DNA of 64,000 nt from Candidatus Bipolaricaulis sibiricus (lineage in GTDB: Bacteria; Bipolaricaulota; Bipolaricaulia; Bipolaricaulales; Bipolaricaulaceae). This document shows, one piece after another, positions 6,271-44,049 of the stretch (its first letter is position 1; each line of letters opens with the position of its first letter). Position numbers and translations under genes: made by a program. The notes under the pieces are model-generated. The model searched no databases and had not been told where the DNA came from. It saw only the letters and a program-made list of their open reading frames with translations. The DNA is taken from positions 1,637,656-1,701,655 of the forward strand of contig CP034928.1 in the NCBI GenBank assembly GCA_004102645.1, in the 5' to 3' direction.

Positions 6271-6627
6271 TGGTGGAGGTGGGGGGAGTCGAACCCCCGT
6301 CCGAAAACCCCTCGGCTTCGGCTTCTACAAGCTTAGCCCGCGTTCTTGTTCTCGGGCGTCACGCTCCCACGGGCGGGATCGCTCGGCCCCCAGCCTCGTT
6401 GAGTTTCGTCCAGCCGGCCCAAGGCCAGCCACCTGGACTAGCCCGTCTTGTCGACGCCCGGCGGCACCCCACGGGCGGGGGAACCCCAGACGGCCTACGC
6501 CTAGTTCAGGGCGTAAGCAGGAACAGTTGCGTAGTCGGCATTTGTTTGCCGTTCCGCCGGATTTAGGAGGAGACGGCCCTCCGCTTGCTGCCTGGCCTCG
6601 GTGTTCCCGTCGAGACCGGTCACCCCC
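6271..6627 (-). ncRNA. ssrA: Transfer-messenger RNA (tmRNA)
   Basis: Rescues stalled ribosomes by trans-translation. One-piece tmRNA, about 357 bases. The tRNA-like half is clear: 5' GGGGGTG pairs with 3' CACCTCC before A-CCA, keeping the G3-U70 alanine identity pair; TCTCGACGGG near the 5' end and GGGTTCGACTCCC near the 3' end are the standard D-like and T-arm blocks. The tag frame is probably the one ending ADYATVPAYALN then TAG, with that stop in a hairpin loop (CTTACGCC/GGCGTAGG), but the resume codon is ambiguous. It overlaps the region upstream of comEC on the other strand. Confidence 0.95.
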
Positions 6628-6637
6628 AAGCTCCTGG

Positions 6638-6643
6638 ATTATA
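6638..6643 (-). promoter_or_regulatory. -10 element for tmRNA/tRNA cluster
   Basis: A perfect TATAAT on the minus strand ends 10 bases before the mature 5' end of ssrA. No strong -35 box is seen at 17 bases. It lies between ssrA and the divergent comEC start, so the two transcription units share about 40 bases. Confidence 0.6.
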
Positions 6644-6665
6644 CTCCCTGCGGAGGCGATGGCCA

Positions 6666-8198
6666 GTGGGACGAGCTCTTCTCCCCGGACTCGGGGCGGC
6701 GCTCGGGTTCGGGATCGCGTTCGGCTACCTTCTCACCCCCGGCCTCTCTGCGATGGCTGCAGCGGGAGGGGCCCTGATCGTCGCGGCAGCGCGGCGATCC
6801 CCCATCGCCCTGTGGGTGGCAGCGTGTGCGCTTGGCGCCGGTCTTGCCGTTCCAGAGACCCTTCCTTCCCACTACGCCTTCCAGCTCCCCAACCTCCGCG
6901 AGGTTACGGGCCGGGTTCTCGACATCCCCGAGCCACGCACGAAGAACGTCTCGTTCACCCTCTCCGTGGACACCCTTGGGGTGGACCTGCTGGCGTACGT
7001 CCCCCGTCATCCAGCAGTCGGACCTGGGGACCAGGTAAAGGTCATCGGCCGATGGGGACTGCCTCAGCCGGAAGGATGGCGGGCGGGTCTGGCCCGCCGC
7101 GGGATCCACGGGCTGTTCTGGGCAGACGAGGTTGAGGTTCTTGCACCGGGTCCGCCCTCGCTCGCCCGCTGGGCGTCCCACGTTCGACAGACCCTGCTTA
7201 GTCACCTGTACCGGGTGGCCCCAGAGGGGACCGAGCGTGCTTCCCCCGCACTGGACCTGCTTGCTGCGCTGCTCCTCGGAGCGCGGGGCATGTTCCCAAG
7301 CGAGGAACAACAGGCGTTCCGGACAGCTGGTGTGGCCCACGTCCTCGCTCTGTCCGGCCTTCACGTCGGGATACTCGTCGCCGGTGGATGGTGGCTCCTC
7401 GGCCTGGTGAGAGTACGCCCAGCGTGGCGGTACCTCGTCCTGGTCCCAGCGGTCGGGTTCTACGTGCTCGTCGGTGGAGCACGGGTATCGCTGATCCGGG
7501 CAGCGATCATGTTCGCAGTGCTTGGCTTGTTCTGGCTTCTGCTGGAGCGAGGGTGGGTTCTGCGTAGATGGCTCGATCCTGTCCAGGGGCTTGCGCTGGC
7601 GGCAACCGTCGTCCTCCTCGTCTGGCCATGGTCCGCTCTCGACACAGGTTTTCAGCTGTCGTTCCTTGCCACAGGGGGGATCGTCGTACTCCTTCCCGGT
7701 TGGACGGGGTCCGACCTGCGCCGCCGCCTTCCGGGTTGGACCCGAAGGGCTGCGGACCTTCTCGCGGTGACCCTGTGTGCCCAGGCGGGGGCCGTTCCCG
7801 TCATCGGGACCGTCTTCGGCCACGTGTCGCCGTACGGGATCCTGGCAAACGTCGTCCTCGTCCCGTGGACCGGCCTCCTCCTCTGGGGCGGGATTCTCGT
7901 CATCGCGCTTGCCGCGCTCCCGATCTCGCTTCCACTGACGTTCCTCGTCGAGGCCGTGCTCGTCGGTCCCTACTTGGCCATCGTCCAATGGGTGTCGGGG
8001 CTCCCCGGGGCCTCGCTCGTCGTCGGTCCGGGGTTTGGCGCGTGGTGCCTGTTGGCCGCGCTGGGCATTCTGCTCCTGCGTGTGATCGCGGAGGAGCCCG
8101 GTAGCCCGTGTGCGAGCCCGTCGCGTTGCCGCGGGCCGCGCGGAGAAGACCCACTCCGTGCGAAACGCGTGGCACCTCGTTCGCCCTCGGTGGGTTGA
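6666..8198 (+). CDS. comEC: ComEC/Rec2 family DNA-uptake channel, short form
   Basis: Inner membrane channel carrying single-stranded DNA into the cytoplasm during transformation. About 510 residues: two or three N-terminal helices, a DUF4131-type OB-like stretch (near residues 70-150), then the polytopic Competence domain with AHVLALSGLHVGIL, GARVSLIRAAIM and FQLSFLATGGIV blocks. The C-terminal metallo-beta-lactamase domain of long ComEC proteins is absent. The frame opens inside the tmRNA gene; GTG at 6666 is chosen because GGAGG sits 9 bases before it. dprA is 1.8 kb downstream. Confidence 0.9.
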   Translation: MGRALLPGLGAALGFGIAFGYLLTPGLSAMAAAGGALIVAAARRSPIALWVAACALGAGLAVPETLPSHYAFQLPNLREVTGRVLDIPEPRTKNVSFTLSVDTLGVDLLAYVPRHPAVGPGDQVKVIGRWGLPQPEGWRAGLARRGIHGLFWADEVEVLAPGPPSLARWASHVRQTLLSHLYRVAPEGTERASPALDLLAALLLGARGMFPSEEQQAFRTAGVAHVLALSGLHVGILVAGGWWLLGLVRVRPAWRYLVLVPAVGFYVLVGGARVSLIRAAIMFAVLGLFWLLLERGWVLRRWLDPVQGLALAATVVLLVWPWSALDTGFQLSFLATGGIVVLLPGWTGSDLRRRLPGWTRRAADLLAVTLCAQAGAVPVIGTVFGHVSPYGILANVVLVPWTGLLLWGGILVIALAALPISLPLTFLVEAVLVGPYLAIVQWVSGLPGASLVVGPGFGAWCLLAALGILLLRVIAEEPGSPCASPSRCRGPRGEDPLRAKRVAPRSPSVG

Positions 8199-9996: not shown

Positions 9997-11058
9997 ATGG
10001 ACCGCACGCTGGCCTGGGTGGGCCTGAACCTGCTCCCGTCCCTCACCCCGCGCCGCCGGGACCTCCTGGTGCGGAGGTGCGGAGGCCCGGTGGAGGGATG
10101 GCAGTGCCTGGAGGGACCCCTCCCCGACGATCTCCAGGAGGCGATCGGCGCCAAGGTTCTCTCCGAGTACAGGAGTGCCGATCCGGAACGGGAGCTGGAC
10201 CCGGCACGCCGCCGTGGGGCGCGGGTGATCACGGTGGACGACGCCGACTATCCCCCACCCCTGCGCGCCATCCCTGCAGCCCCACCAGTTCTCTACGTGC
10301 TCGGGAGCTGGGAGCCCGCCGATGTCCGGGCGGTGGCGGTCGTCGGCACCCGCCGATGCACGAGCTACGGGCGGCTCGTGGCGCGGAAGCTGGGGGCAGA
10401 GCTGGCCGCTCGCGGTGTCACCGTTGTGTCGGGACTCGCCCCGGGGATCGATGCCGCAGCCCACGATGGAGCGTTGACCGCTGGACGCACGGTGGCTGTC
10501 CTCGGGACCGGCTTGGGGAACCCGTACCCAGCAGGGAGCGAAGGGCGGATCGAGGGGATCGCTTCCCGCGGGGCCGTCATATCCGAGTTCCCCTGGACCA
10601 CACGCGGATCGCAGTGGACGTTCCCCCGTCGAAACCGCATCATCGCTGGCCTGTCCCAACTCGTGGTCGTGGTAGAGGCGCCAGAGCGATCAGGCGCTCT
10701 CATCACGGTGGACTACGCCCTCGCTCAGGGCAAGGACGTCCTCGCCGTACCAGGCCCCATCACGTCCGAGGCCTCGATGGGCTCGAACCGGCTGATCCAA
10801 GATGGGGCTAGACCCGTTCTCTGCGCTGGGGACATCTTGTCCGAGCTGGGGATGCCATCGTTGCCCCTTGCCTCCCCGCCGGCCCTCAAGCCCGAGGCCC
10901 AACGGGTGTACGACCTCCTGTCCCACGAGCCCCTCGACCCATCCGAGATGGTTGCCCAAACAGGCCTGTCACACGCAACGGTCGCCCGGATCTTGCTCGA
11001 CCTCGTCCTGTCCGGGCACGTCCACGAGCTGCCAGGCCGCAAGTACGTTCGGGCGTGA
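9997..11058 (+). CDS. dprA: DNA processing protein DprA
   Basis: Loads RecA on incoming single-stranded DNA during transformation. 353 residues. The Rossmann-like core has VVGTRRCTSYG, VSGLAPGIDAAAHDGAL, GSQWTFPRRNRIIAGLS and the SGALITVDYALAQGK block; residues from about 290 form the DprA winged helix (LSHEPLDPSEMVAQTGLS). An N-terminal helical part precedes the core. ATG at 9997 is chosen; the ORF is open upstream only as the shadow of the WD40 gene. Together with comEC it indicates a competence pathway. Confidence 0.94.
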   Translation: MDRTLAWVGLNLLPSLTPRRRDLLVRRCGGPVEGWQCLEGPLPDDLQEAIGAKVLSEYRSADPERELDPARRRGARVITVDDADYPPPLRAIPAAPPVLYVLGSWEPADVRAVAVVGTRRCTSYGRLVARKLGAELAARGVTVVSGLAPGIDAAAHDGALTAGRTVAVLGTGLGNPYPAGSEGRIEGIASRGAVISEFPWTTRGSQWTFPRRNRIIAGLSQLVVVVEAPERSGALITVDYALAQGKDVLAVPGPITSEASMGSNRLIQDGARPVLCAGDILSELGMPSLPLASPPALKPEAQRVYDLLSHEPLDPSEMVAQTGLSHATVARILLDLVLSGHVHELPGRKYVRA

Positions 11059-11190: not shown

Positions 11191-13299
11191 ATGAGGAAAA
11201 CCCTGTTGTTCGTGGTATGGTGTGCCCTCGCTCTGACGGCGTGGGCGGCCCCGCAGCGGCTGGCGTTCATCCTTGACGCATCGGACTCGATGAACATCGG
11301 CCTTGACGGCGGCCCCACCCGGTTCGCGTGGGCCAAGGAGGCCTTGACGTTGGTTCTAGACGACCTCTCGGACGAGACGTCGTTTGCGGTCGCGGTGTTC
11401 GGCCACCGGATACCGAAGACGCAGGAGCCAGCAACGTGCCGTGACATCGAACTCATCGCGTCCTTGGGAACCTACGGCGCAGTGGATCGCGCCGTACTCA
11501 AGGCCACGATCGCCAACCTGGTTGCGATGGGGAAGACCCCGCTCGCCGAGTCGCTCCGATTCATTGCAGGAAGAGTCCCCGCACCGGCGCGCATTGTTCT
11601 GCTTACCGACGGAGGGGAGACGTGCGGGGGAGACCCGGTCGCGGAGGCGCGGCGCCTGTGCGCGTTGGGGTACACGGTAGATGTGGTTGGCTTGGCCCTC
11701 ACCCCCGCTGATGAGCAGGCACTCCGCGCGATCGCTGCAGCGGGGTGTGGCCAGTTTATCGTCGTAGCAGAACCGAAAGATCTTGTTCCGTTGTTCCGTG
11801 AATTTGTGATCCCGACGCCTCCGATTCCGGCGCCAACGATTCCGCACTGCCTCGCCACGTACAAGGTTGACCCCGCCATCGTCGCCCTGCTCCTGAAGCA
11901 TCTTCCCTATGCACCATGCACGGACCCGATGTGGCACGTGATCCTGTGCTTCCTCGAGCAGAACCCACCCGCCAAGATCATCGTCGGAACTGAAGGTGAT
12001 GACGTCCTGTTCGGAACGCCGGGCAACGACCTGATCCTCGGCCTGGGTGGCGACGATCAGATCTTCGGGTTCGCCGGGAACGATCTCCTCATCGGCGGCC
12101 CGGGGAACGACCTCATCCAGGGAGGCGATGGCGACGACCTCATTCTGGGTGGACCAGGCAATGACCTCCTGTTCGGCGGTGCCGGCGACGACATGATCTA
12201 CGGTGAGGATGGCGACGACCGGATCGAGGGCGAGGCCGGGAACGACAAGCTGTTCGGCGGTCCGGGCAACGACATCATCCTCGGCGGTCCTGGCTGCAAC
12301 GTGATCGACGGTGGCCCCGGGAAGAACTTCATCTACGATGAGGGAACGTGCGCCCCGCGGCCACTGGCTCCCGACTGCACGCCAGTCTGCGCGCCGCCTG
12401 TTCCCGCGACACCGAAGCCGACCATCTCCCCCACCTGCCAGGTCGCCCCGGAGATCAAGACGGTCGTCGAAGGAGGAAGCATTGTCCTGCGCGCAATCGT
12501 TCACGATCCCGACGGGGACCCGGTCCGGGTAACGTGGTCGGCTCCCAAGGGCCATTTCTCCGATCCACACGCGTTCGAGCCCACGTACTACGCGCCGTGG
12601 GTCAAGTCGTGCGATGGCGAACGGATCGAGATCACCCTCACAGCGGTCGACGCTTGCGGCGCGCAGGCAGTGGATAAGCTCGTTCTCCACGTGCTCAACG
12701 TGAACCATCCGCCAGTGGTGGACGCCGGGCCGGATCTCGCGGTGGACGAGGGCGGCAAGATCAGGCTCCTTGCCTCGGCCTGTGACCCTGACGACGATGC
12801 GTTGTCCTTCCTCTGGACGATTGGTTGTGGCCGCGGATCGCTCGACAACCCGCGGGCCCTTCAGCCGATCTACACAGCCCCGCTCACCTCGCGGTGTGAG
12901 GGAGAGACGGTCGAGCTCACCCTCACCGTGACCGACGCCTGCGGTGCGGTGGCCCAGGACACGGTGCGGATCCACGTGCGAAACCTGAACAAGCCGCCGT
13001 GGGCTGATGCCGGGCCCGACCTCCAGGTACCCGAGAAGGCGCAGATCATGATCCTCGGCCAGGCCGGGGACCCCGACGGCGAGAAGCTCACCGTCACCTG
13101 GTGGGCGAGCGCGGGGACCCTTCTCAACGCCGACACCCTGTGCCCGATCTTCGTCGCTCCCGAGGTCGAGGGCTGTGACCACATGCTGGTTACGGTCACC
13201 CTGTGCGTCATGGATCCGTGCGGCGCTGTCGCCCAGGACTCGCTTGTGATCAAGGTCCTCAACGTGAACCGGCCGCCGCAGGTCAAGGCAGATCCGTAG
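11191..13299 (+). CDS. Secreted VWA, RTX-repeat and PKD-like domain protein
   Basis: 702-residue exported protein, architecture: signal peptide (1-19), von Willebrand A domain (about 22-190) with intact MIDAS residues D29, S31, S33 and LLTDGGETCGG, a Cys-containing linker, an RTX/hemolysin-type calcium block of tandem GGPGNDLIxGG nonapeptides (about 262-385), then three PKD/cadherin-like repeats (about 415-505, 506-600, 605-700), each with NVNHPPxVDAGPD-type boundaries and a Cys pair (RCEGE and DACGA types). Probably a calcium-dependent surface adhesion or matrix protein. SD GGGAGG; TTATACT at 11099 may be a -10. Followed by a strong terminator, so monocistronic. No C-terminal anchor seen. 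Confidence 0.85.
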   Translation: MRKTLLFVVWCALALTAWAAPQRLAFILDASDSMNIGLDGGPTRFAWAKEALTLVLDDLSDETSFAVAVFGHRIPKTQEPATCRDIELIASLGTYGAVDRAVLKATIANLVAMGKTPLAESLRFIAGRVPAPARIVLLTDGGETCGGDPVAEARRLCALGYTVDVVGLALTPADEQALRAIAAAGCGQFIVVAEPKDLVPLFREFVIPTPPIPAPTIPHCLATYKVDPAIVALLLKHLPYAPCTDPMWHVILCFLEQNPPAKIIVGTEGDDVLFGTPGNDLILGLGGDDQIFGFAGNDLLIGGPGNDLIQGGDGDDLILGGPGNDLLFGGAGDDMIYGEDGDDRIEGEAGNDKLFGGPGNDIILGGPGCNVIDGGPGKNFIYDEGTCAPRPLAPDCTPVCAPPVPATPKPTISPTCQVAPEIKTVVEGGSIVLRAIVHDPDGDPVRVTWSAPKGHFSDPHAFEPTYYAPWVKSCDGERIEITLTAVDACGAQAVDKLVLHVLNVNHPPVVDAGPDLAVDEGGKIRLLASACDPDDDALSFLWTIGCGRGSLDNPRALQPIYTAPLTSRCEGETVELTLTVTDACGAVAQDTVRIHVRNLNKPPWADAGPDLQVPEKAQIMILGQAGDPDGEKLTVTWWASAGTLLNADTLCPIFVAPEVEGCDHMLVTVTLCVMDPCGAVAQDSLVIKVLNVNRPPQVKADP

Positions 13300-19961: not shown

Positions 19962-20819
19962 TCAGGGATGCGCACGCGACCGGCGGCAGGGGTCCGCAGC
20001 CGGAACCAGCCCGAGGGGGACAACCTCCAGGCCTCGCTCCCGCAGAGCATCCACAAACGGGTTGATCCCCAGGGAGTCGCTCGCAATGTGCCCGGTGACC
20101 ACGAGGTTCTTCCCGCAAGCCCCATACTCTCGGGAGAGCTGCCGCGCCACAGCCGGCTGGCAGTGAATGTAGACCAGCGTGTCTATACCGTGGTCGAAGT
20201 ACGCCTTGGCCACAGCGTACCCTCCGTTCGTCCCCGCTCCGTGGGCCACGGCCACCCGGCCCACGCGGTTTTCCTCCCGCCCCACAAGGCACTGGATGCG
20301 GGTGAGTGCGTTCCGGAACTCGCCGAATCGGTTGCAGAAGTGGGCAATGAGTTCAGCAACTGCGTCGCGGGGACTCAGCTCGCCTGCCGCTTCCGCCATC
20401 CGCCGTCGGCCGATCTCATCGAGCGGGGTGTGGATGTTCATGTACGCGACTCCGAGAGCCCGGGCAAGGGAGGGCAGCCGGTCGTAGTTCCGGGTCTGTC
20501 CCACCACACGATCCTCGAACAACCTCTCTTCGACTGCCGCCTGCGCCACGTCCCGGGGGACGCCAACCCGCACCATCAGCTCCACATGGCGAACGAACAC
20601 CTCGTCCATGTGCAGGACGGCCGTCCCCCCCGCCGGATGATGGGCCAGTGCGAGATCGAACCCCTGCTCTTTCGCCCACATGAGCTCCGGCCCCTCGAGA
20701 TCGATCCCGACCAGGACCCGTTGGATCGCCCGGCCTGGGCAGTAGATCGCCGTATCCGCAGGGACTTCAGTCAACCCTGCCATGCTGAGCGAGAGCTGCA
20801 GGATGTCTTCTGTGGTCAT
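19962..20819 (-). CDS. Nif3-like dinuclear metal centre protein
   Basis: 285 residues. Family features include LVGIDLEGPELMWAKEQ, LALAHHPAGG (a metal-binding His pair), NIHTPLDEIG, the central VAHGAGTNGGY and GHIASDSLG near the C-terminus. Nif3/YbgI proteins are hexameric or toroidal metalloproteins of uncertain role, sometimes annotated as GTP cyclohydrolase type 1-like. ATG at 20819 follows AAAGGGGG; TACAAT at 20842-20847 (minus) is a likely -10. The long upstream extension of the frame is antisense to the small rubredoxin-like gene and is rejected. Confidence 0.8.
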   Translation of the reverse strand: MTTEDILQLSLSMAGLTEVPADTAIYCPGRAIQRVLVGIDLEGPELMWAKEQGFDLALAHHPAGGTAVLHMDEVFVRHVELMVRVGVPRDVAQAAVEERLFEDRVVGQTRNYDRLPSLARALGVAYMNIHTPLDEIGRRRMAEAAGELSPRDAVAELIAHFCNRFGEFRNALTRIQCLVGREENRVGRVAVAHGAGTNGGYAVAKAYFDHGIDTLVYIHCQPAVARQLSREYGACGKNLVVTGHIASDSLGINPFVDALRERGLEVVPLGLVPAADPCRRSRAHP

Positions 20820-20863
20820 CGTTCCCCCTTTGAAGGACGGGATTGTACGGCTTCCTGGCCCGG

Positions 20864-20869
20864 TATAAT
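20864..20869 (+). promoter_or_regulatory. -10 element for the rubredoxin-like gene
   Basis: TATAAT 23 bases before the ATG at 20892. TTGTAC lies 15 bases upstream, a short spacer. The Nif3-like gene has its own candidate -10 on the other strand, so this is a divergent promoter region. Confidence 0.5.
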
Positions 20870-20891
20870 CCCCCCCTCGGGAGTGTGTGGG

Positions 20892-21002
20892 ATGCCCATA
20901 TGGTTGTGCACGGGGTGCGGGCAAGAGATCCGTGGGGGCTCGCGCCCGAAGACCTGCCCGCACTGCGGCGCCCCAAGGGACAAGATCGAGCGGTCAGAGT
21001 AG
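20892..21002 (+). CDS. Tiny rubredoxin-like (zinc ribbon) protein
   Basis: 36 residues with two CxxC knuckles, WLCTGCGQEI and KTCPHCGAPR, spaced as in the rubredoxin-like domain at the end of rubrerythrins. It would bind one iron or zinc. Independent evidence for a gene is the TATAAT box upstream and a 28-base hairpin (GAGGGCAG...CTGCCCTC) right after the stop. It may act alone as an electron carrier or be a detached rubrerythrin tail. Confidence 0.6.
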   Translation: MPIWLCTGCGQEIRGGSRPKTCPHCGAPRDKIERSE

Positions 21003-21054: not shown

Positions 21055-22749
21055 CTACTTGACCTCGACGATCCGGCCCTCGACCTCGGCGCGAATCGGG
21101 GTGTGCTGGCGCACGTAGTCGGCAAGCACGTCGGCATCCACGAAGGCGAGAACGACACTCTCCTTCGCGTTCCGGAACGACTCGAATCCGTCCCCGCCGC
21201 CCGCGAGGAAGTTGTTCGTGACAACCTTGTAGGTGGATGTCCTGCGAATGGGAGCGAATCCGTCTGCGGTAAGAACTTCGGCCGACACGATCCGTTGCCC
21301 CGCTGGGCGGGCGGGGTCCCACGTGAACCGCATCCCCGCAACATGAGGAAACCGACCCGCAACCTTCTCCACCTGAGAGACTCCGTTCTCAAGCGCCGCC
21401 AGAATCTGCTCGCCCGTAAGGGTGAGCACCACCAGATAGTTGCCAAACGGGAGAACCTCCAGCGCCTGGCCGAGCGTGATCTGTCCCATCGGGATGGACC
21501 CACGGATTCCCCCTCCGTTCTGAACGGCGATCTGGGCTCCAGCAGGGGCCGCCTTCCATAGCATCGCGTCGGCAATGAGGTTCCCAAGGTTCGTCTCCCG
21601 GGTTCGTACATGGCCACGTTCACCATCGAGGTCGACCTTCGTCTCCCCGATCACCTCGCCCTTCAACGCAGCGATCGGCTCGCGAAACACCGCGAGCTGC
21701 GCCTCGATCTGCGCGTTCATCGGCAACTTGTCCACGGGAATGAGCTCCCCCCTCCAGGACCTCAAGACGCCCCCGTCGTCGAAGGTCGCCTCCAACCAGC
21801 CAACGTGGAGGGCTCGCTCGCCTGCCTGGACGACCAGTGCTGGCACCACAGCGTCCACAACCGAGATCCGGTCGCGGATACCGGCCAGTGTGGCACTGCC
21901 GATCCCGCTCACCTTCGTGATGTCCTCGATCGTCTGGAACGGGCCGTGGGTCTGGCGGTAGTCGATGATCCGCTGTGCCAACGCCGGACCGATTCCCCGC
22001 AGGGTCTGCAGCTCCTCGGATGTCGCGGTGTTGAGGTTGACGAGGGTTCGCTCCACCACAGCCGGATACGTGTCGGGCAGCGTGTGGGAGTGCCCCCCGA
22101 CCACGATGTCGATGCCCGTCACCGAACGCGCGAGCTCGAGATCGCGCTCCCACCCCAGATGGCTGAGGGCCACGATCGCGTGAACCCCGAGCGCCGTCAG
22201 CTCGGCCACTGCTGTCCGGGCAGCGGCGAACGGATCGTGGATCTCGATGTTCGGTCCCGGGTTTGAACTCCACGACGTGCTCTCCGTGGTCAGGCCGAGA
22301 ATGCCCACCCGGCCACCGCCCGCCTCGACAACGATGTAGGGGACGATCCGCCCGTGGAGAAGGGGTTCCCCCGTGAAGTCGAAGTTGGCACAGAGGAGTG
22401 GGAAGCTCACCTGGTCGGCGAACTTGGCCAGACCCCGGGGGCCTTCGTTGAACTCATGGTTGCCCAACGCCATTGCCGTGAACCCCATCTGCTCCAGAAC
22501 CCACGCCTCTGCCAGACCTTTGTGCACCGTGTAGTACAAGGTGCCCATCACTGCGTCCCCCGCGTGGAGGAGCAGGGCGTCGGGAACCTGAAGCCGGATC
22601 TCGTCGATCAGTGACGCCTGGCGGGCCATGTTCTCAAGCTGGGAATGGGTATCGTTCGTGTGGAGAATGGTGACCGTCCAGTCCTGTGACCAGCCCCCCA
22701 CAGCCACGCTGATGGCCACAGCCGCTAGCAGGAACATCGTTCTCCTCAT
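21055..22749 (-). CDS. Secreted 5'-nucleotidase/metallophosphatase with internal ComEA-like HhH domain
   Basis: 564-residue exported enzyme of the UshA/2',3'-cyclic phosphodiesterase family: signal peptide (1-21), metallophosphatase domain with HTNDTHS (30-36), GDAVMGT, GNHEFN and GGHSHT (218-223), and the 5'-nucleotidase C-terminal domain (NLIADAMLW, NGGGIRGSIPMG, TNNFLAGGGDGF). Oddly, residues about 235-299 are a helix-hairpin-helix unit of ComEA type (NLNTATSEELQTLRGIG, then VSGIGSATLAGIRDRI), placed between the last metal-binding His motif and VQAGERALHVG. Start ATG follows AAAGGAGG. Likely periplasmic or extracellular; the HhH would give DNA affinity. PNP lies upstream in the same direction. 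Confidence 0.9.
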   Translation of the reverse strand: MRRTMFLLAAVAISVAVGGWSQDWTVTILHTNDTHSQLENMARQASLIDEIRLQVPDALLLHAGDAVMGTLYYTVHKGLAEAWVLEQMGFTAMALGNHEFNEGPRGLAKFADQVSFPLLCANFDFTGEPLLHGRIVPYIVVEAGGGRVGILGLTTESTSWSSNPGPNIEIHDPFAAARTAVAELTALGVHAIVALSHLGWERDLELARSVTGIDIVVGGHSHTLPDTYPAVVERTLVNLNTATSEELQTLRGIGPALAQRIIDYRQTHGPFQTIEDITKVSGIGSATLAGIRDRISVVDAVVPALVVQAGERALHVGWLEATFDDGGVLRSWRGELIPVDKLPMNAQIEAQLAVFREPIAALKGEVIGETKVDLDGERGHVRTRETNLGNLIADAMLWKAAPAGAQIAVQNGGGIRGSIPMGQITLGQALEVLPFGNYLVVLTLTGEQILAALENGVSQVEKVAGRFPHVAGMRFTWDPARPAGQRIVSAEVLTADGFAPIRRTSTYKVVTNNFLAGGGDGFESFRNAKESVVLAFVDADVLADYVRQHTPIRAEVEGRIVEVK

Positions 22750-22868
22750 CGTGTCCTCCTTTGGATCGAATCGAACCCGTTGACTGCCGGCTCCCTCCCC
22801 GCTCTCACCCCCTCTCTCCGCCGCAACCGCCCTCGCGAGGTCGCGCGCATCGTGCGCCAATCTCTTAG

Positions 22869-22993: not shown

Positions 22994-23803
22994 CTAGAGA
23001 CGCGGCACGAGAGCCGTGAGGAGGCGGCCCAGATCCGCGGCCCGACGGCGTGAGGTCTCGATGACCTCGTCGTGGGACAGGGGCGCGGGAGATACCCCTG
23101 CAGCGAGGTTCGTGACACACGAAATCGCCAAGACCCTCATTCCGGCATGACGGGCAGCGATTGCCTCGGGGACAGTGGACATCCCCACGAGGTCCGCCCC
23201 CAGTGCGCGAAACGCGCGGATCTCGGCTGGCGTCTCGTACGACGGACCCAGGGTTGCCAGGTACACCCCTTCCTTGAGGCCGATCCCCAGAGAACGCGCC
23301 ACGTCTCGCGCCGTCCTGCGCAGCGCGGGATCGTAGACCGCTGTCATGTCGGGGAAACGCGGTCCGAGGGGGTCCAGGTTTGCCCCCCGCAGTGGGTTGT
23401 CGCCGAGGAGGTTGACATGGTCGGAGAGGAGCACCAGATCCCCTGCCTCCAAACCATGGGCGATCCCTCCCGAGGCATTGGTGAGAACAAGCACGCGTAC
23501 CCCGAGCCGCGCGTAGACCCGAACAGAAAAAACGACATCGGCTAGCGGGTATCCCTCATAGTGATGGACCCGACCCCGCTGGACAAGGACAGTTCGTCCG
23601 GAGACAACACCCACAGCCACCTCACCGGCGTGGCCCGCCACGGACGGCACGGGAAAGCCCGAGATCTCGCGGAAGGATAGTACCCTCTCCTCCTCCAGGG
23701 GGAACACACTGGACAGCCCCGACCCCAAGACCACGGCCACCTCGGGCGTCCCCAGCCTGGAAAGCGCCTTCGCGGCCCGCTCGATGCGCTCCATCTCCTC
23801 CAT
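22994..23803 (-). CDS. Purine nucleoside phosphorylase
   Basis: Splits purine (deoxy)nucleosides with phosphate into base and (deoxy)ribose-1-phosphate. 269 residues, trimeric PNP family length. Motifs: VVLGSGLSSV, GRVHHYEGY (catalytic His), NASGGIAHGLEAGDLVLLSD, GPSYETPAEIRAF (base-binding region), GMSTVPEAIAARH and SCVTNLAAG. ATG at 23803 with GAAGGAGAG upstream; another ATG 9 bases on is possible. With the nucleotidase next to it, it suggests purine salvage. Confidence 0.93.
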   Translation of the reverse strand: MEEMERIERAAKALSRLGTPEVAVVLGSGLSSVFPLEEERVLSFREISGFPVPSVAGHAGEVAVGVVSGRTVLVQRGRVHHYEGYPLADVVFSVRVYARLGVRVLVLTNASGGIAHGLEAGDLVLLSDHVNLLGDNPLRGANLDPLGPRFPDMTAVYDPALRRTARDVARSLGIGLKEGVYLATLGPSYETPAEIRAFRALGADLVGMSTVPEAIAARHAGMRVLAISCVTNLAAGVSPAPLSHDEVIETSRRRAADLGRLLTALVPRL

Positions 23804-23859
23804 TCTCTCTCCTTCGCTCGATACTCGAACGGTCAACCGTTCAATCGGCAGCCGCAGTT

Positions 23860-24924
23860 CTAGAACCCATCCATCGTTCCCGTATACCCGTTCTTGAATC
23901 GCCCCAGGCCGAACTCGATCGCCCGAGCTCGTGCCTCCGCGATCCCCTTCACTCGGTCAAGCTGTCGCCGCGAGGCGCGATAGACCTTGTCCACAGTCCC
24001 AATCTCCTCGATCAGCCGTTCGATCACGGAGATCGGCAGACGGGGAACCTTGGACAGCAACCGATACCCTCGCGACGGAATGGGTTCCTCGACCTCCTGG
24101 TCGGTGGTGATCCCCAACGGGCGGAGGACGACGTCCGGACGTAGGGCGTCCTCGGCCGACAGGGCGAGGAGATCGTCGACGATCTCCTCGGCAGGACGAG
24201 GGTCCGACTTGAAGTCCCGCACCAGAAGCTCCATCTCCTCCCGCACTCCGCGCATGAGGGCGGTGAGGTGGCGCTCCGGAAGCTCCCGATGCACCCCCAG
24301 TTCGACGAGCGTCCGCTCCACGTCCCGCTCCAGCTCCATCATGTACAGGACGCGTTGGAGCACAGCCGCCACGTGAGACGGGAACACCCGCCGCTCGAAC
24401 TCCAGCTGGGCAAGTTCGGTGAGAAGCTCCCGCAGCTCCCGCCGGTACCGGTCAAGGATCTGCAGCGCCTGGGAAACCCGAGCCAAGAGGGTCTGGATGT
24501 CCTGGAGCTCATACCGCCAGTCGCCGTGGAACAGGGTCACCTGCCGGCTGTCCTCTGAGATCGCGATCACGAGCCGTTCGATCTCCCGCGCCACTTGCTC
24601 CGCCACGCGGTGGCGGGTTCCCGTCTCCTGAGAGGGGATGGCTGGGCTGGGGATGAGATGAGCGTTGGCATAGAGAATGGTCTTCAGGTCTTCGTCCACA
24701 ACCACGGCCCGGTCCATCTTCGACAGCTCGACAATCGCCTGGGGAGTGAACGGGGCGTTGAGCTCGAACCCCGCAGCGATGATCGGGCTAGCGGCGCTAC
24801 GGTCAGCGACGACGATGAGCCCACCCCGGCCAAACTGCACGATGCGGTCCACCGCTTCCCGCAGAGGGGTGCCCGGCGCGGTGCGCCGCAAGAACTCCAG
24901 CCGCGGATCCTTCTTCCCGCCCAT
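23860..24924 (-). CDS. disA: DisA, DNA integrity scanning / diadenylate cyclase, altered DGA motif
   Basis: DisA makes cyclic di-AMP from two ATP and scans for branched DNA. 354 residues with all three domains: DAC (1-145), central helical linker, and a C-terminal RuvA-like HhH (KVYRASRRQLDRVKGIAEAR). RHR is intact (TGTRHR, 104-106) but the DGA active-site motif reads D71-R72-A73 (KMDRAVVVDED), from a CGG codon at 24709-24711 where Gly is expected. This may lower or abolish cyclase activity. It starts directly after the radA stop in the clpC-radA-disA run, a neighbourhood common in Gram-positives. Confidence 0.92.
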   Translation of the reverse strand: MGGKKDPRLEFLRRTAPGTPLREAVDRIVQFGRGGLIVVADRSAASPIIAAGFELNAPFTPQAIVELSKMDRAVVVDEDLKTILYANAHLIPSPAIPSQETGTRHRVAEQVAREIERLVIAISEDSRQVTLFHGDWRYELQDIQTLLARVSQALQILDRYRRELRELLTELAQLEFERRVFPSHVAAVLQRVLYMMELERDVERTLVELGVHRELPERHLTALMRGVREEMELLVRDFKSDPRPAEEIVDDLLALSAEDALRPDVVLRPLGITTDQEVEEPIPSRGYRLLSKVPRLPISVIERLIEEIGTVDKVYRASRRQLDRVKGIAEARARAIEFGLGRFKNGYTGTMDGF

Positions 24925-24925
24925 G

Positions 24926-26254
24926 TCAGGTCAGCTCGAGCGCCTCCATCGCTTCCTGCAGGCTCTGTGCCTGTACCACCTCCAACGATAGCCGCTTGGG
25001 GAGGGGGCCCTTCGGCGCTACCGCCCGACTGAACCCGAGCTTCGCAACCTCGCGAAGCCGCTCGGGTCCCTTCCGCACAGGACGGATCTCCCCAGACAGA
25101 CCCACCTCGCCCAGGAGCACGGTGTCGGAAGCGATCGGTCTCCCTCGAACACTCCCCAGAATCGCCGCGCACACGCCAAGGTCGGCGGCGGGTTCCCGCA
25201 CATCCAGTCCACCGGCGACCGCGAGGTACACATCCATCGCCCGCACGTGCACCCCGAGGTACTTCTCGATTACAGCCAACAGAACGGAGGTTCGATTGAG
25301 GTCGAGCCCCGCTGTTCGACGCTGCGGGGGGCCAAACCCGCTTCCCGGGGCGATCAGTGCCTGGATCTCGACGAGGAGGGTCCGCGATCCTTCCAGCACA
25401 GGCACAATCGCTGCTCCTGGCTTCGGCACCCGATCCTGGGAGACAAAGAACAGCGAAGGGTTCGGAACCTCCGTGAGCCCGGTCGGCCCCATCTGGAGCA
25501 CAGCAACTTCGGCCGTGGATCCGAACCTGTTCTTGAGACAGCGCAACAGGCGGAGGTCCCCCTCCCGGACCCCCTCCAGCTGCACGGCCGCGTCCACGAG
25601 GTGCTCCACGGTCTTGGGGCCCGCGAACTCGCCCCCCTTCGTGATGTGGGAGACAAGAAAGGTGACGATCCCCAGCCCCTTGGCCAACCGGGCAAGCTGA
25701 GCAGCGGCCTCGCGCACCTGAGCAACACTCCCGATCTCCCCGCCCTCGGGACGGGCGAGCACCGTCTGGAGCGAGTCCACCACGAGCACGGCTGGCTCGA
25801 TCGCCTCCACCGCCCGCACGATCGGAAGGAGTTCCTGCTCAGCCTGCACATAGAGCATGGCATCGGAGATGCCCAACCGGTCCGCTCGCAGCTTGACCTG
25901 GGCCACCGCTTCCTCGCCCGACACGTAGAGGACCTTCCCGTGCCGCGCAGCAAGCCGGGAGGCGAGCTGGAGCAGCAGTGTGGACTTGCCCACGCCAGGC
26001 TCCCCCCCGAACAGGACCACGGTTCCGGGCAAGAGCCCGCCAAGCACCCGATCCACCTCGGGCATGCCCGTCACCAGGCGCTCGCCGGACAGAGCCGGGA
26101 CATCGGCCAGAGGCCGTGGAGGATCACCGCTGGCCGTTCCTCCCGCGGGTGAGGGGCCCGACGCCTCCTCGAACGTCTCCCACTTCCCACAGCCGGGGCA
26201 TCGGCCCAGCCACTTCGGAGACTGGTAGCCGCACTCCCGGCAGTGGAAGGGCAT
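24926..26254 (-). CDS. radA: DNA repair protein RadA
   Basis: ATP-dependent branch-migration helicase in recombination and transformation. 442 residues: C4 zinc finger (CRECGYQSPKWLGRCPGC, 5-22), RecA-like core with Walker A GEPGVGKST, the family-defining KNRFGST motif, and a C-terminal Lon-protease-like domain (DLGVCAAILGSVRGRPI). The ATG follows the clpC stop immediately (TAGATG) with its SD inside the clpC end. Beside dprA and comEC it fits a competence role as well as repair. Confidence 0.96.
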   Translation of the reverse strand: MPFHCRECGYQSPKWLGRCPGCGKWETFEEASGPSPAGGTASGDPPRPLADVPALSGERLVTGMPEVDRVLGGLLPGTVVLFGGEPGVGKSTLLLQLASRLAARHGKVLYVSGEEAVAQVKLRADRLGISDAMLYVQAEQELLPIVRAVEAIEPAVLVVDSLQTVLARPEGGEIGSVAQVREAAAQLARLAKGLGIVTFLVSHITKGGEFAGPKTVEHLVDAAVQLEGVREGDLRLLRCLKNRFGSTAEVAVLQMGPTGLTEVPNPSLFFVSQDRVPKPGAAIVPVLEGSRTLLVEIQALIAPGSGFGPPQRRTAGLDLNRTSVLLAVIEKYLGVHVRAMDVYLAVAGGLDVREPAADLGVCAAILGSVRGRPIASDTVLLGEVGLSGEIRPVRKGPERLREVAKLGFSRAVAPKGPLPKRLSLEVVQAQSLQEAMEALELT

Positions 26255-39910: not shown

Positions 39911-40244
39911 AATGTTCGGTTTCACAGTAGTGTTGGCAGGTGGAGGTACGAGGGGGTAGCAGGAGCGAGGGTCACCGCGGCAAGCTCACCGGGGATCCGA
40001 AAGAAACCTGGGAGGTAGCGCGATGACCCCTGAGGACACGGTACACGGTTTTCGGCTCCATGCACTCCGCCGAGCGGAGGAACTGGGCAACGTGAGCGCG
40101 GCGTGTCGAGAACTCGGTGTCAGCGCCGGGTTAGAACTGACCCACTGGCGCCGGTTTGGTTTTGACCCGCCCCCTGGCCAGGGCAACTTCTCGTCCTGTG
40201 GCAAGGACGGGAGGTGTCCAGAGGAGATGCTGGGAGGCGGGACG

Positions 40245-41465
40245 GTGAAACAGATGTACGAGCTGGCAGGTGGGGGACAGTCGATCCGTGGGATCGCCCG
40301 GAGCTTGGGGATCTCCCGCAACAGGGTGCGCAAGTACCTGCGGTCGCCGCAGGTGCCTACGCCCAGACCACGACCTGGGAGGGTCTCCAAGCTTGACCCC
40401 TACAAGGACTACATCCGGCAGCGGCTGGCGGAGGGGGTGGACAACTGTGTGGTGCTTCTGCGGGAGATCCGCGCCCGGGGGTACGCTCGGGGCCACTCGA
40501 TCCTCAAGGAGTTCGTGAAGCCGTATCGTTTGCCTCGGGCCCCACGGGCGACGATGCGCTACGAGACGGAACCAGGGGAACAGGCCCAAGTGGACTTCGG
40601 GCGCTACCGCTACCTGACCCCAGACGGACAGGAGCGCTGGGTGTGGGCGTTTGTGTGCCTGCTTTCCTGGTCCCGGGCCCTGTACGTGGAGTTCGTGGAC
40701 CGGGCCGACACCCCGACCTTCATCCGCTGTCACGCCCACGCTTGGGAGCACTTCGGCGGTGTCCCCCGGCGGTGCCTGTACGACAACACCAAGCTCGTGG
40801 TGGTGGGCCGAGATGAGGACGGGAAGCCTCGGTGGAACGAGCGGTTTCTCGACTTCGCCTTACGGGTGGGGTTCGAGGTGAAGCTGTGCCGACCGTACCG
40901 GGCTCAGACCAAGGGCAAGACAGAGCGTGGGGTGGGGTACGTGGAGGGGAACTTCTGGCCTGGGGCGCGGTTCACGGACTTGGGGGATCTCAACCGGCAG
41001 GTTCTGGCATGGATCGCCACCGTGGCTGACGTGCGGGTGCACGGGACGACCCACGAGCGGCCGGTGGACCGTGGGGCCCGGGAGCGGCCTCAGCTCGGCC
41101 CCCTGTTGCCCCGGGAGCGCCTGGTGCCGTTCCTGCGTGAGGAGCGCAAGGCAGGCCGAGACGCGTTTGTCCGGTGGAGCGGGTCCTGGTACGGAGTGCC
41201 GTGGCTGTGGGCAGGGAAGACGGTCCAAGTCCAGGCGGACAAGACCACGGTCCAGATCTTCGCTGGTGAGGAGAGGCTTGCAGTGCACCCTCGGGCAAGC
41301 TCCCCCGGCCGGCAGCTCATCGTGCCCGGGCAGTGGGACGGGCTACCGATGGGGGAGGAGAAGAAGCGCCGGAGTCCGGCGGCGCGGCAGCTGGCCACCG
41401 TGGAGGTGGAGGCGCGGTCGCTTGGGGAGTACGCGCGGATCCTGGAGGAGGTGACCGTCCGATGA
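40245..41465 (+). CDS. istA: IS21-family transposase IstA
   Basis: 406 residues: N-terminal HTH (QSIRGIARSLGISRNRVRKY), integrase core with the DDE residues (QAQVDFGRYRYL; YDNTKLVVV; KGKTERGVGYVEGNF), and a C-terminal beta domain (YGVPWLWAGKTVQVQ). The frame is open back to 40023 only because it runs into the IS481 transposase start; GTG at 40245 after GGGAGG gives the standard IstA start, with ATG 40227 as an alternative. Overlaps istB as ATGA. Confidence 0.92.
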   Translation: MKQMYELAGGGQSIRGIARSLGISRNRVRKYLRSPQVPTPRPRPGRVSKLDPYKDYIRQRLAEGVDNCVVLLREIRARGYARGHSILKEFVKPYRLPRAPRATMRYETEPGEQAQVDFGRYRYLTPDGQERWVWAFVCLLSWSRALYVEFVDRADTPTFIRCHAHAWEHFGGVPRRCLYDNTKLVVVGRDEDGKPRWNERFLDFALRVGFEVKLCRPYRAQTKGKTERGVGYVEGNFWPGARFTDLGDLNRQVLAWIATVADVRVHGTTHERPVDRGARERPQLGPLLPRERLVPFLREERKAGRDAFVRWSGSWYGVPWLWAGKTVQVQADKTTVQIFAGEERLAVHPRASSPGRQLIVPGQWDGLPMGEEKKRRSPAARQLATVEVEARSLGEYARILEEVTVR

Positions 41466-42268
41466 TCGCCGTAGCCAAGGCGCGGCAGTACCTAAAGGAA
41501 CTCAAGCTCACCCAGGCGGCCGAGGTGATGGAGAGCCGGCTGGAGGCTGCAGCCCAGAAGGAACTCCCGTACGCCGAGTTCCTGGTGGACCTCCTGGGGA
41601 TCGAGGCCCGAGCGCGTCGCGAGCGGTACCTCACCACACGCACCCGCCTGGCGCACCTTCCGTTCCACAAGACCCTCGAGGAGTTCGACTTCGCCTTCCA
41701 GCCGTCGATCGACGAGCGGCAGGTGCGGGAGCTGGGGACGCTGGCGTTCGTGGGGGATGCGGCGAACGTGGTGTTGCTGGGGCCGCCTGGGGTGGGGAAG
41801 ACCCACCTCGCGGTGGCGCTGGGGCTGCGGGCAATTGAGCAGGGCTACCGGGTGTACTTCGCCCGGGCCCACGATTTGGTGGAGGACCTGAGGCGGGCCC
41901 AGGCCGAGCACAGACTGGATCGCAGGCTTCGGGTGTACCTCGCGCCCAAGGTGCTGATCGTGGACGAGTTCGGGGTGTGGCCGTGCGGCCGGGAGGGAGC
42001 TACCGCCCTGTTCGCCCTCGTGTCGGCGCGGTACGAGCGGGGAAGCATCATCCTCACGTCGAACAAGGGGTTCGCTGAGTGGGGAGAGGTGCTGGGGGAC
42101 GAGGTGGTGGCGACAGCGATCTTGGATCGGCTCCTCCACCACAGTCACATCCTCAACGTCCGCGGGGAGAGCTACCGGCTGCGCGAGAAGAGACGAGCGG
42201 GCTTGTTCGGGCGGGCTGCGGGACGTTCACCCGAGCCTGCAACTGAAAGCGCACGCGAGGAACGATGA
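41462..42268 (+). CDS. istB: IS21-family helper ATPase IstB
   Basis: 268-residue AAA+ protein that assembles on target DNA and activates IstA. Walker A GPPGVGKTH, Walker B VLIVDEFGVW (usually DEFGYLP), sensor LTSNKGFAEWGE and C-terminal HHSHILNVRGESYRLRE are all intact. Start overlaps istA (ATGA). Confidence 0.94.
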   Translation: MIAVAKARQYLKELKLTQAAEVMESRLEAAAQKELPYAEFLVDLLGIEARARRERYLTTRTRLAHLPFHKTLEEFDFAFQPSIDERQVRELGTLAFVGDAANVVLLGPPGVGKTHLAVALGLRAIEQGYRVYFARAHDLVEDLRRAQAEHRLDRRLRVYLAPKVLIVDEFGVWPCGREGATALFALVSARYERGSIILTSNKGFAEWGEVLGDEVVATAILDRLLHHSHILNVRGESYRLREKRRAGLFGRAAGRSPEPATESAREER

Positions 42269-43353
42269 CAGGAGGGGGCGGGTCAATTCCAAGTCGGCCG
42301 AAGTGGGTCAGAAGTACACCGGCGTTGACACTCGGCATCTTGCGCACGGTGTTCTACCGGTGGAAGAAGCGCCTCCGGGCGTACGGGGCGGATGCTCTTC
42401 ATCCCCGACGAACGTCCGCTCGTCCCGGACGACCACCGCTGCTGGGTCTCGTGGAGGAACGGGCGATCGTAGCGACGGCGCTGGCGTGGCCGACGTGGGG
42501 ACCGAACCGGGTGTCGTTGCAGCTTGCACGACAAGGGGTCCACGTCTCCCCAAGCACGGTGTGGCGGGCGTTGCCGCGGATGGGGCTGGGACGTCGTGAG
42601 GCGCGGCTCCTGGCCGTGGAGGGGCATGCAGCGAAGACCGCGGGGCTCCTCACCGAGCGCACGCGACGGACCCTCCGGGGGGCCCGGCACGTAGCTGTCG
42701 ACGAACCCGGGGAGCTGGTGTGCCTGGACACGTTCTTCATCGGCAAGCTCGAGGGCGGGGGGCAGATGTGGCAGATCACGGCGTGCGATGCGGCGAGCTC
42801 CTACGCCTGGGCGAAGGTGATCCCGGCCCGCAACGCGGTGGAGGCAGCACGGTTCCTGGCCGAGGTGCTCGTTCCCCAGTTCGCCAAGGCGGGGGGAAGC
42901 TCCAGCGCGTGCTCACGGATCGGGGGAGGCGAGTTCAGGGGCGAGTTCGACCAAGCCTGCCGGGACCTGGGGATCACCCACTCGCGGACGAAGCCTCGGC
43001 ACGCGTGGGCGAACGGGTTCGCGGAGCGGCTCCGAGGGGACGATCCTCCACGAGCACTGGCGGGTGGCGTTCCGACGAAGGTACTTCACCCGCGCTCACC
43101 AACTGCAGCGGTTCCTCGTAGTGTTCCTGCGGTTCTACAACGAGGAGCGACCGCACCGAGGGTACCGGACGCAGGGACGCACTCCGGCCGAGGTGTTCTG
43201 GGGAGCGGCGGCTCACGCACCGGCCAAGGAGGCCTAACGTGTCAACAGCATTGCGGTACTGGACAGTCTAGGCGAACGACGGCGTTTGTCGAGGCGAACG
43301 CAGAGGGCGAAGTAGGGTCTAGAACGAGGATTCTTCCGAGAGGAGGACATTCG

Positions 43354-44049
43354 TCAGCTGAGCTGGCGCAGGTGCTCGACGTCCGCAAGGAAGACCCGCG
43401 GCGAGGCAACTTCGATCAACCCCTCGGCGCGCAGTAGCTGAACTTCCTTGCACGTCGCCTGCCGGCTCGCTCCGATCATCCCCGCCAGGTCCCCAAGCGA
43501 TAGCGGGAGGTCAATCCGCATCTTGGCACCCTCCCGTACCCCGTGCTCCTCGGCGAGGTCTAGAAGCACCCGCACCAGGCGCCGTCGGATGCTCGCGTAG
43601 GCTAGGTCCACCAAGCGCTTTGCCAGAACACGCTCCCTCTCCTCCCAGCGCAGGTGGGTCGCGGCGAGCAACTCCGGGTACCGCCGGCCAAGGTCCAGGA
43701 CGTGCTCGCGGGGGACGAACCCCACCACGCAGCGCGAGGCGGCGATCATCGAGAAGCAGTGGGCCCCAGAGAACGACCCCGCGAGAAGCTCTCCCGGGCC
43801 GCAGAACTGCAGCAGCAACCTCTTGCCGTCCTCCGCGCTCACGGTGAGCTTGGCCGATCCTCGGCAGAGGACGACCCACCCTATAGAGGGTGTTCCCTCG
43901 TGAACGATCGTCGTGCCCCTCTCGAACCGGACCCACTGGACGCGTGACGCGGACCTTCGGAGGGCCTTGGGTTCCACAGCCGAGAGAACACACCGGGGGC
44001 GGGAGGGACAGGAGGCACAGCCGACGGTTGTCGCGTCCGGTCCGGTCAT
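43354..44049 (-). CDS. Crp/FNR family regulator with N-terminal cysteines
   Basis: 231 residues: cyclic-nucleotide-binding fold (about 30-145; GTTIVHEGTPSIGWVVLCRG and KRLLLQFCGPGELLAGS) and a C-terminal winged helix (SLGDLAGMIGASRQATCKEV). The N-terminus has GCASCPSRPRC and a fourth Cys occurs in AHCFSM, arranged like the Fe-S ligands of FNR, so oxygen or redox sensing is likely. The ATG directly follows GGAGG, an unusually short SD spacing. Fragments of the same gene lie at 33271-33447 and 35714-35945. IS481 ends 86 bases after its stop. Confidence 0.85.
   Translation of the reverse strand: MTGPDATTVGCASCPSRPRCVLSAVEPKALRRSASRVQWVRFERGTTIVHEGTPSIGWVVLCRGSAKLTVSAEDGKRLLLQFCGPGELLAGSFSGAHCFSMIAASRCVVGFVPREHVLDLGRRYPELLAATHLRWEERERVLAKRLVDLAYASIRRRLVRVLLDLAEEHGVREGAKMRIDLPLSLGDLAGMIGASRQATCKEVQLLRAEGLIEVASPRVFLADVEHLRQLS

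Follow-up and report, generated by a model that had tools for sequence, protein, structure and literature searches.

UshA-type 5'-nucleotidases shut over one nucleotide through a domain rotation of 96 degrees (PMC8475336), and UshA of V. cholerae is named, where McDonough 2016 is cited in PMC9273947, among the periplasmic phosphatases used on extracellular DNA and nucleotides. In ComEA, the phosphate is gripped by main-chain amides in the hairpins together with a small number of side chains; in the B. subtilis protein, K164 and K199 are critical (PMC9747964), and K63 and the second glycine of the GIG motif are critical for DNA binding by V. cholerae ComEA (PMC3879209). ComEA-derived (HhH)2 domains are joined to nucleic-acid hydrolases in DNaseTA of Thioalkalivibrio sp. 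K90mix and in lactamase-HhH proteins, and DNaseI acts better on DNA in salt when fused to an (HhH)2 taken from either B. subtilis ComEA or DNaseTA (PMC4777378). ComEA-like HhH domains are also combined with a phosphoesterase-fold enzyme in EEPD1 (9yi2), an animal protein with N-terminal HhH domains and an EEP nuclease that works at stalled replication forks. The closest natural and engineered analogues of the protein described below are DNaseTA and the ComEA-DNaseI fusion; in DNaseTA, however, the HhH is C-terminal and the partner is an EEP-fold nuclease, whereas here the HhH is internal to a predicted mononucleotidase of the Metallophos fold.

The window, which is the whole stretch of 64,000 nucleotides of Candidatus Bipolaricaulis sibiricus that was analysed, encodes a 5'-nucleotidase-like protein in which such a domain interrupts the chain. 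The features of its gene are as follows.

21055..22749 (-): ushA-like gene with the inserted HhH domain, 564 aa, ATG start, stop included
22755..22760 (-): Shine-Dalgarno sequence AGGAGG, 5' of the ATG at 22749, read from the sequence
22687..22749 (-): hydrophobic N-terminus MRRTMFLLAAVAISVAVGGWS, residues 1-21, likely Sec signal peptide (hydropathy; low pLDDT over residues 1-20)
22081..22671 (-): Metallophos catalytic domain, residues 27-223 (Pfam; metal-site residues D33, H35, D65, N97, H197, H220, H222)
22081..22098 (-): GGHSHT metal motif, residues 218-223, the last metal ligands ahead of the insertion
21850..22050 (-): inserted ComEA-type (HhH)2 domain, residues 234-300, between strands 230-235 and 301-308
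21175..21654 (-): 5_nucleotid_C substrate-binding domain, residues 366-525 (Pfam; R382, N411, R416, F435, D520)

The start at ATG 22749 was preferred over an upstream TTG at 22860 on account of its Shine-Dalgarno sequence, and the hydrophobic stretch that follows MRR at the N-terminus was recognised by hydropathy alone. A scan for promoters and terminators found none. The catalytic domain matches PF00149 with 47.2 bits (cut-off 21.5, E 4.6e-12) and the C-terminal domain matches PF02872 with 158.3 bits (cut-off 23.6, E 2.2e-46). In an alignment of 45 relatives, there is little or no variation at the metal ligands D33, H35, D65, N97, H98, H197 and H220 and at the substrate-clamp residues R382, N411, R416, F435 and D520. 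As judged from these matches, the product is a 5'-nucleotidase of the UshA/CD73 type with a likely signal peptide.

Residues 234-295 match the HHH_3 profile PF12836 with 75.8 bits (cut-off 27, E 2.9e-21), and the insert scores 76.7 bits against TIGR00426, the HhH region of ComEA (cut-off 53.1), but only 26.2 bits against T2SSK. The whole protein reaches 82.4 bits against the full ComEA model TIGR01259, below the cut-off of 152.35, and is not classed as ComEA because of this score and because the domain sits inside an enzyme. Sequence matches to the insert profile include EEPD1, ComEA, KIF22, Tex, TEFM, XPF and Hef, which are mostly nucleic-acid-binding HhH proteins. The hairpins of the domain are G252-I-G254 and G282-I-G284. 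The original prediction had placed a ComEA-like DNA-binding domain at residues 235-299 (21853-22047, minus strand) of an UshA-type 5'-nucleotidase, and the matches to HHH_3, TIGR00426, Metallophos and 5_nucleotid_C bear this out, with the three Pfam domains on one chain. Together with the predicted structure, they identify residues 234-297 as a complete tandem HhH domain of the ComEA type within an UshA-type enzyme.

The nearest solved relatives are the 5'-nucleotidase 2z1a of Thermus thermophilus (434 bits) and the ComEA structures 8dfk and 8dss. With 2z1a, as with UshA and CD73, the protein shares the two-domain fold and the active-site residues (about 50% identity, 477 residues); it differs in that 21 residues of 2z1a (248-268) are replaced by 74, the HhH included. 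HMMER aligned the two proteins up to residues 229 and 247, respectively, and resumed at residues 304 and 269. A full-length AlphaFold2 model built from 45 aligned sequences has a pLDDT of 92.1, with values mostly above 90 for the HhH region of 244-294, where helices are modelled at residues 244-247, 255-268, 274-279 and 285-294. The model superposes on 2z1a over 477 of 507 residues (Z 43.2, rmsd 3.3) and also on CD73. The insert occupies the turn of a beta-hairpin, formed by strands 230-235 and 301-308, a little past GGHSHT, where relatives that lack it have, by alignment, just a short turn such as YPTLTESASGDPVLVAT. The HhH domain thus projects, in the predicted structure, from an intact nucleotidase fold; the alternative that it is a segment of the standard UshA fold is ruled out by the alignment, the model and the 2z1a superposition, in agreement with the original suggestion that it loops out of the phosphatase. 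When modelled alone (pLDDT 79), the segment superposes on ComEA of Geobacillus stearothermophilus (8dss_B) with an rmsd of 0.9 A over 66 columns at 50% identity (Z 13.0), and 2duy and Tex are also near the top of its structural matches; PsbU and GspK (XcpX) are further structural matches with weak sequence matches. Like the DNA-binding domains of ComEA from G. stearothermophilus (8dss), B. subtilis (8dfk) and T. thermophilus (2duy), which are covered by TIGR00426, the insert is a complete tandem HhH without a connector helix. Unlike ComEA, it is embedded in an enzyme, with neither a transmembrane nor an oligomerization domain, and lacks the K164/K63 contact.

The occurrence of the junctions was surveyed with a 184-residue query that spans both of them in 389 genomes, comprising 100 of the phylum and 289 outside it. 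Matches across both junctions were obtained only in 22 genomes of one Bipolaricaulota family (genera g1, g5, g8, g10 and g12), and the insert is present in all 22 full-length relatives from this family; the remaining matches listed cover either the HhH alone, as ComEA, or the enzyme alone. No junction-spanning match was among those listed for the 289 genomes outside the phylum, and what the plasmid searches returned was either ComEA by itself or nucleotidases lacking the insert. The insert was likewise not found in nine full-length orthologues from another family (f2) or in others of the class, nor in the relatives from Meiothermus, Chloroflexota, Rhodobacterales and Thalassospira. The original prediction had called for a survey of relatives and would have been refuted by an insertion that is common among these nucleotidases and already described; in the genomes surveyed, the insertion is confined to this one family, and the literature searched yielded no description of a nucleotidase with an inserted ComEA-type HhH. 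A misassembly or frame artefact is ruled out by the same insert in independent assemblies. Two records of this set are unusual in other respects. DSBZ01000253.1 (L006/L032) carries two identical gene copies, tail to tail and about 100 bases apart, which are most likely a palindromic assembly artefact, and DYGJ01000017.1 (L005), whose title is Thermotoga sp., contains the complete Bipolaricaulota block clpC-radA-disA-pnp-ushA::HhH-nif3 at 74-92% identity and is probably a misassigned MAG.

In a tree of the host enzyme computed without the insert columns, the inserted proteins form one clade (SH-aLRT 99), and a single insertion in the ancestor of the family is therefore the simplest history. The span from GGHSHT to the following LG is a constant 100 residues in nearly all of the 22 genomes. 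The dN/dS of the HhH is 0.11-0.49 in the 14 closest pairs, which points to purifying selection similar to that on the enzyme. Its column entropy is intermediate, with the values of both enzyme domains on one side and those of the variable regions on the other. A chance resemblance to HhH is ruled out by the HHH_3 score, the dN/dS values and the retention of the domain in 22 genomes. The HhH tree is too short to name the donor, and trees built from 59-69 such domains give no answer as to whether it was the lineage's own ComEA. In the best of these trees the inserted copies fall into two groups, but a one-clade constraint is not rejected (p-AU 0.33); the clustering of inserts with ComEA of Chloroflexota and Bacillota is partly an artefact, as those loci were found via the peptide PFQTIEDI.

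The residues of B. subtilis ComEA were placed on the insert via the aligned Bacillus ComEA of locus L081, and those of V. cholerae via what we take to be the sequence of that protein, alongside the published study of its DNA binding. All 22 inserts retain G254, both glycines of hairpin 2 (the second being G284) and R292, the last of which corresponds to B. subtilis K199. The position that is K164 in B. subtilis and K63 in V. cholerae holds Leu, Ile or Tyr in every insert (22/22). Since it is also Leu in all 32 ComEA proteins of the same family, the absence of this lysine is not decisive and the residue does not define the domain family, and the insert is not inferior to the resident ComEA proteins except at the K193 position, which is Ala in 18/22 inserts versus Lys in 18/32 ComEA of the family. 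The first glycine of hairpin 1 is replaced by Arg (RIG) in seven inserts (L006, L007, L009, L011 and others) but in none of 47 ComEA domains, and this change could mark altered binding. The net charge of the inserted domain is near zero (mean -0.6). Taken at the level of these residues, nucleic-acid binding by the insert is plausible.

The neighbouring genes and the competence genes of the window are located as follows.

22994..23836 (-): purine nucleoside phosphorylase, upstream neighbour on the same strand (PRK08202, 338.8 bits, cut-off 218; synteny)
19962..20963 (-): DUF34/NIF3 protein, downstream neighbour, conserved in the genus
23860..24924 (-): disA (diadenylate cyclase), upstream
24926..26254 (-): radA/sms, upstream
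6585-8198 (+): comEC
about 10210-10818 (+): dprA

In the genus of the window (g1), the order is clpC-radA-disA-pnp-ushA::HhH-nif3, in which ushA::HhH directly follows the purine nucleoside phosphorylase gene. In g5, g8 and g12, a nucleoside phosphorylase resembling uridine phosphorylase is followed by ushA::HhH, a Bmp/PnrA-like binding protein, an ABC ATPase and a permease. The original prediction had proposed that the enzyme feeds the adjacent phosphorylase, and these phosphorylase and Bmp/PnrA importer operons of three other genera make the link to nucleoside salvage, as read from gene order, stronger than had been noted. The window genome encodes three Bmp genes at other sites. In Thalassospira (L028, L029, L046, L052, L055-L057, L060 and L064), an ushA without the insert is arranged divergently from an adjacent Bmp-type nucleoside ABC importer. 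This is an independent case of UshA linked with nucleoside import, so that the association goes with the enzyme itself whether or not the insert is present. The presence of comEC, dprA and radA in the window had also been pointed out and is correct, but a connection with the competence genes is not supported beyond their presence in the same genome; comEC and dprA lie 11-15 kb away on the opposite strand and are therefore not linked to this gene.

On these grounds, the protein is probably a periplasmic 5'-nucleotidase of nucleoside salvage that acquired its (HhH)2 once and is tethered by it to nucleic acid near the products of nucleases, a reading to which we assign a probability of roughly 0.6. 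We infer that the enzyme is exported and converts 5'-nucleotides to nucleosides and phosphate, and that an ancestor of the family gained the ComEA-type (HhH)2 in the beta-hairpin turn past the metal motif. The domain most likely holds the nucleic-acid backbone without sequence specificity. Such a tether would benefit the cell by keeping the enzyme where secreted nucleases free mononucleotides, so that more of these could be captured before they diffuse away; the nucleosides could then be imported via Bmp-type importers and split by phosphorolysis. The original prediction instead had the enzyme attack the ends of DNA, which is unlikely because UshA-type enzymes enclose one nucleotide (PMC8475336) and would act poorly on the end of a polymer; it is likelier that the enzyme is tethered close to the products of nucleases.

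The HhH might also be a protein-docking module that does not bind nucleic acid and attaches the nucleotidase to a periplasmic partner, be it the Bmp importer, a protein of a pseudopilus, the machinery of competence or a second copy of the nucleotidase. HhH domains serve in protein complexes in PsbU of photosystem II and in GspK/XcpX of the type II secretion pseudopilus, the ComE1 HhH of Pasteurellaceae binds fibronectin as well as DNA (PMC2601033), and the key DNA-contact lysine of ComEA is absent from the insert. The force of this last point is reduced by the ComEA proteins of the lineage, which lack the lysine as well; moreover, the backbone-binding glycines of the hairpins and R292 are retained and the insert is far nearer to ComEA (76.7 bits with TIGR00426) than to T2SSK (26.2 bits), and we regard docking as rather unlikely. 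Still less can be said for the insert as a neutral or purely stabilising passenger fixed by drift: its site is a tolerant surface turn whose length varies across the family in the alignment, but the HhH is under purifying selection like that of the enzyme (dN/dS 0.11-0.49), its signature residues are invariant over five genera and its length is near-constant, which largely refutes this idea.

A role in DNA uptake, in which the enzyme would ride incoming transforming DNA, salvage the nucleotides of the degraded strand and couple competence to nutrition, is improbable. A ComEA-type HhH binds DNA in the V. cholerae periplasm (PMC3879209), and comEC, dprA and a membrane-anchored ComEA, encoded at another site, are present in the same genome. 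Against this, no conserved linkage to com genes was seen in the flanks examined, where the conserved neighbours are genes of nucleoside salvage. To our knowledge, natural transformation has not been shown in Bipolaricaulota. It is likewise doubtful that a periplasmic, DNA-gripping HhH, which starts some 12 residues after the final metal ligand, passes nucleotides from DNA under degradation straight to the active site in uptake-coupled salvage; if true, this would tie DNA import of the competence type to nutrition by nucleosides in a phylum that is uncultured.

The protein has an apparently undescribed architecture, in which a competence-type DNA-binding domain is inserted into, not appended to, a mononucleotide phosphatase, and which was probably fixed once and is found in five genera. 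The known pattern of ComEA-type HhH combined with nucleic-acid hydrolases would now reach the step from nucleotide to nucleoside. The architecture offers a testable hypothesis of how Bipolaricaulota, which are poorly cultivated, use nucleic acid from outside the cell as food, and is relevant to whether DNA-uptake proteins and nutrient scavenging have common parts.

Several other genes of the window genome were recorded. A 638-aa protein (L184:64-1980 (-), G000:C1 about 452780-453091) with a likely signal peptide is a fusion of a staphylococcal-type nuclease (SNase) and a purple-acid-phosphatase-like Metallophos domain; it could be another secreted enzyme that degrades nucleic acids, which would fit with their digestion outside the cytoplasm. 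Genes for IS21-like and IS481/IS630-like transposases lie at 40023-43437 of the window, and a gene at 11191-13299 (+) encodes a 702-aa protein with a von Willebrand A domain, RTX-type repeats and bacterial Ig-like domains, which is probably a secreted surface protein.
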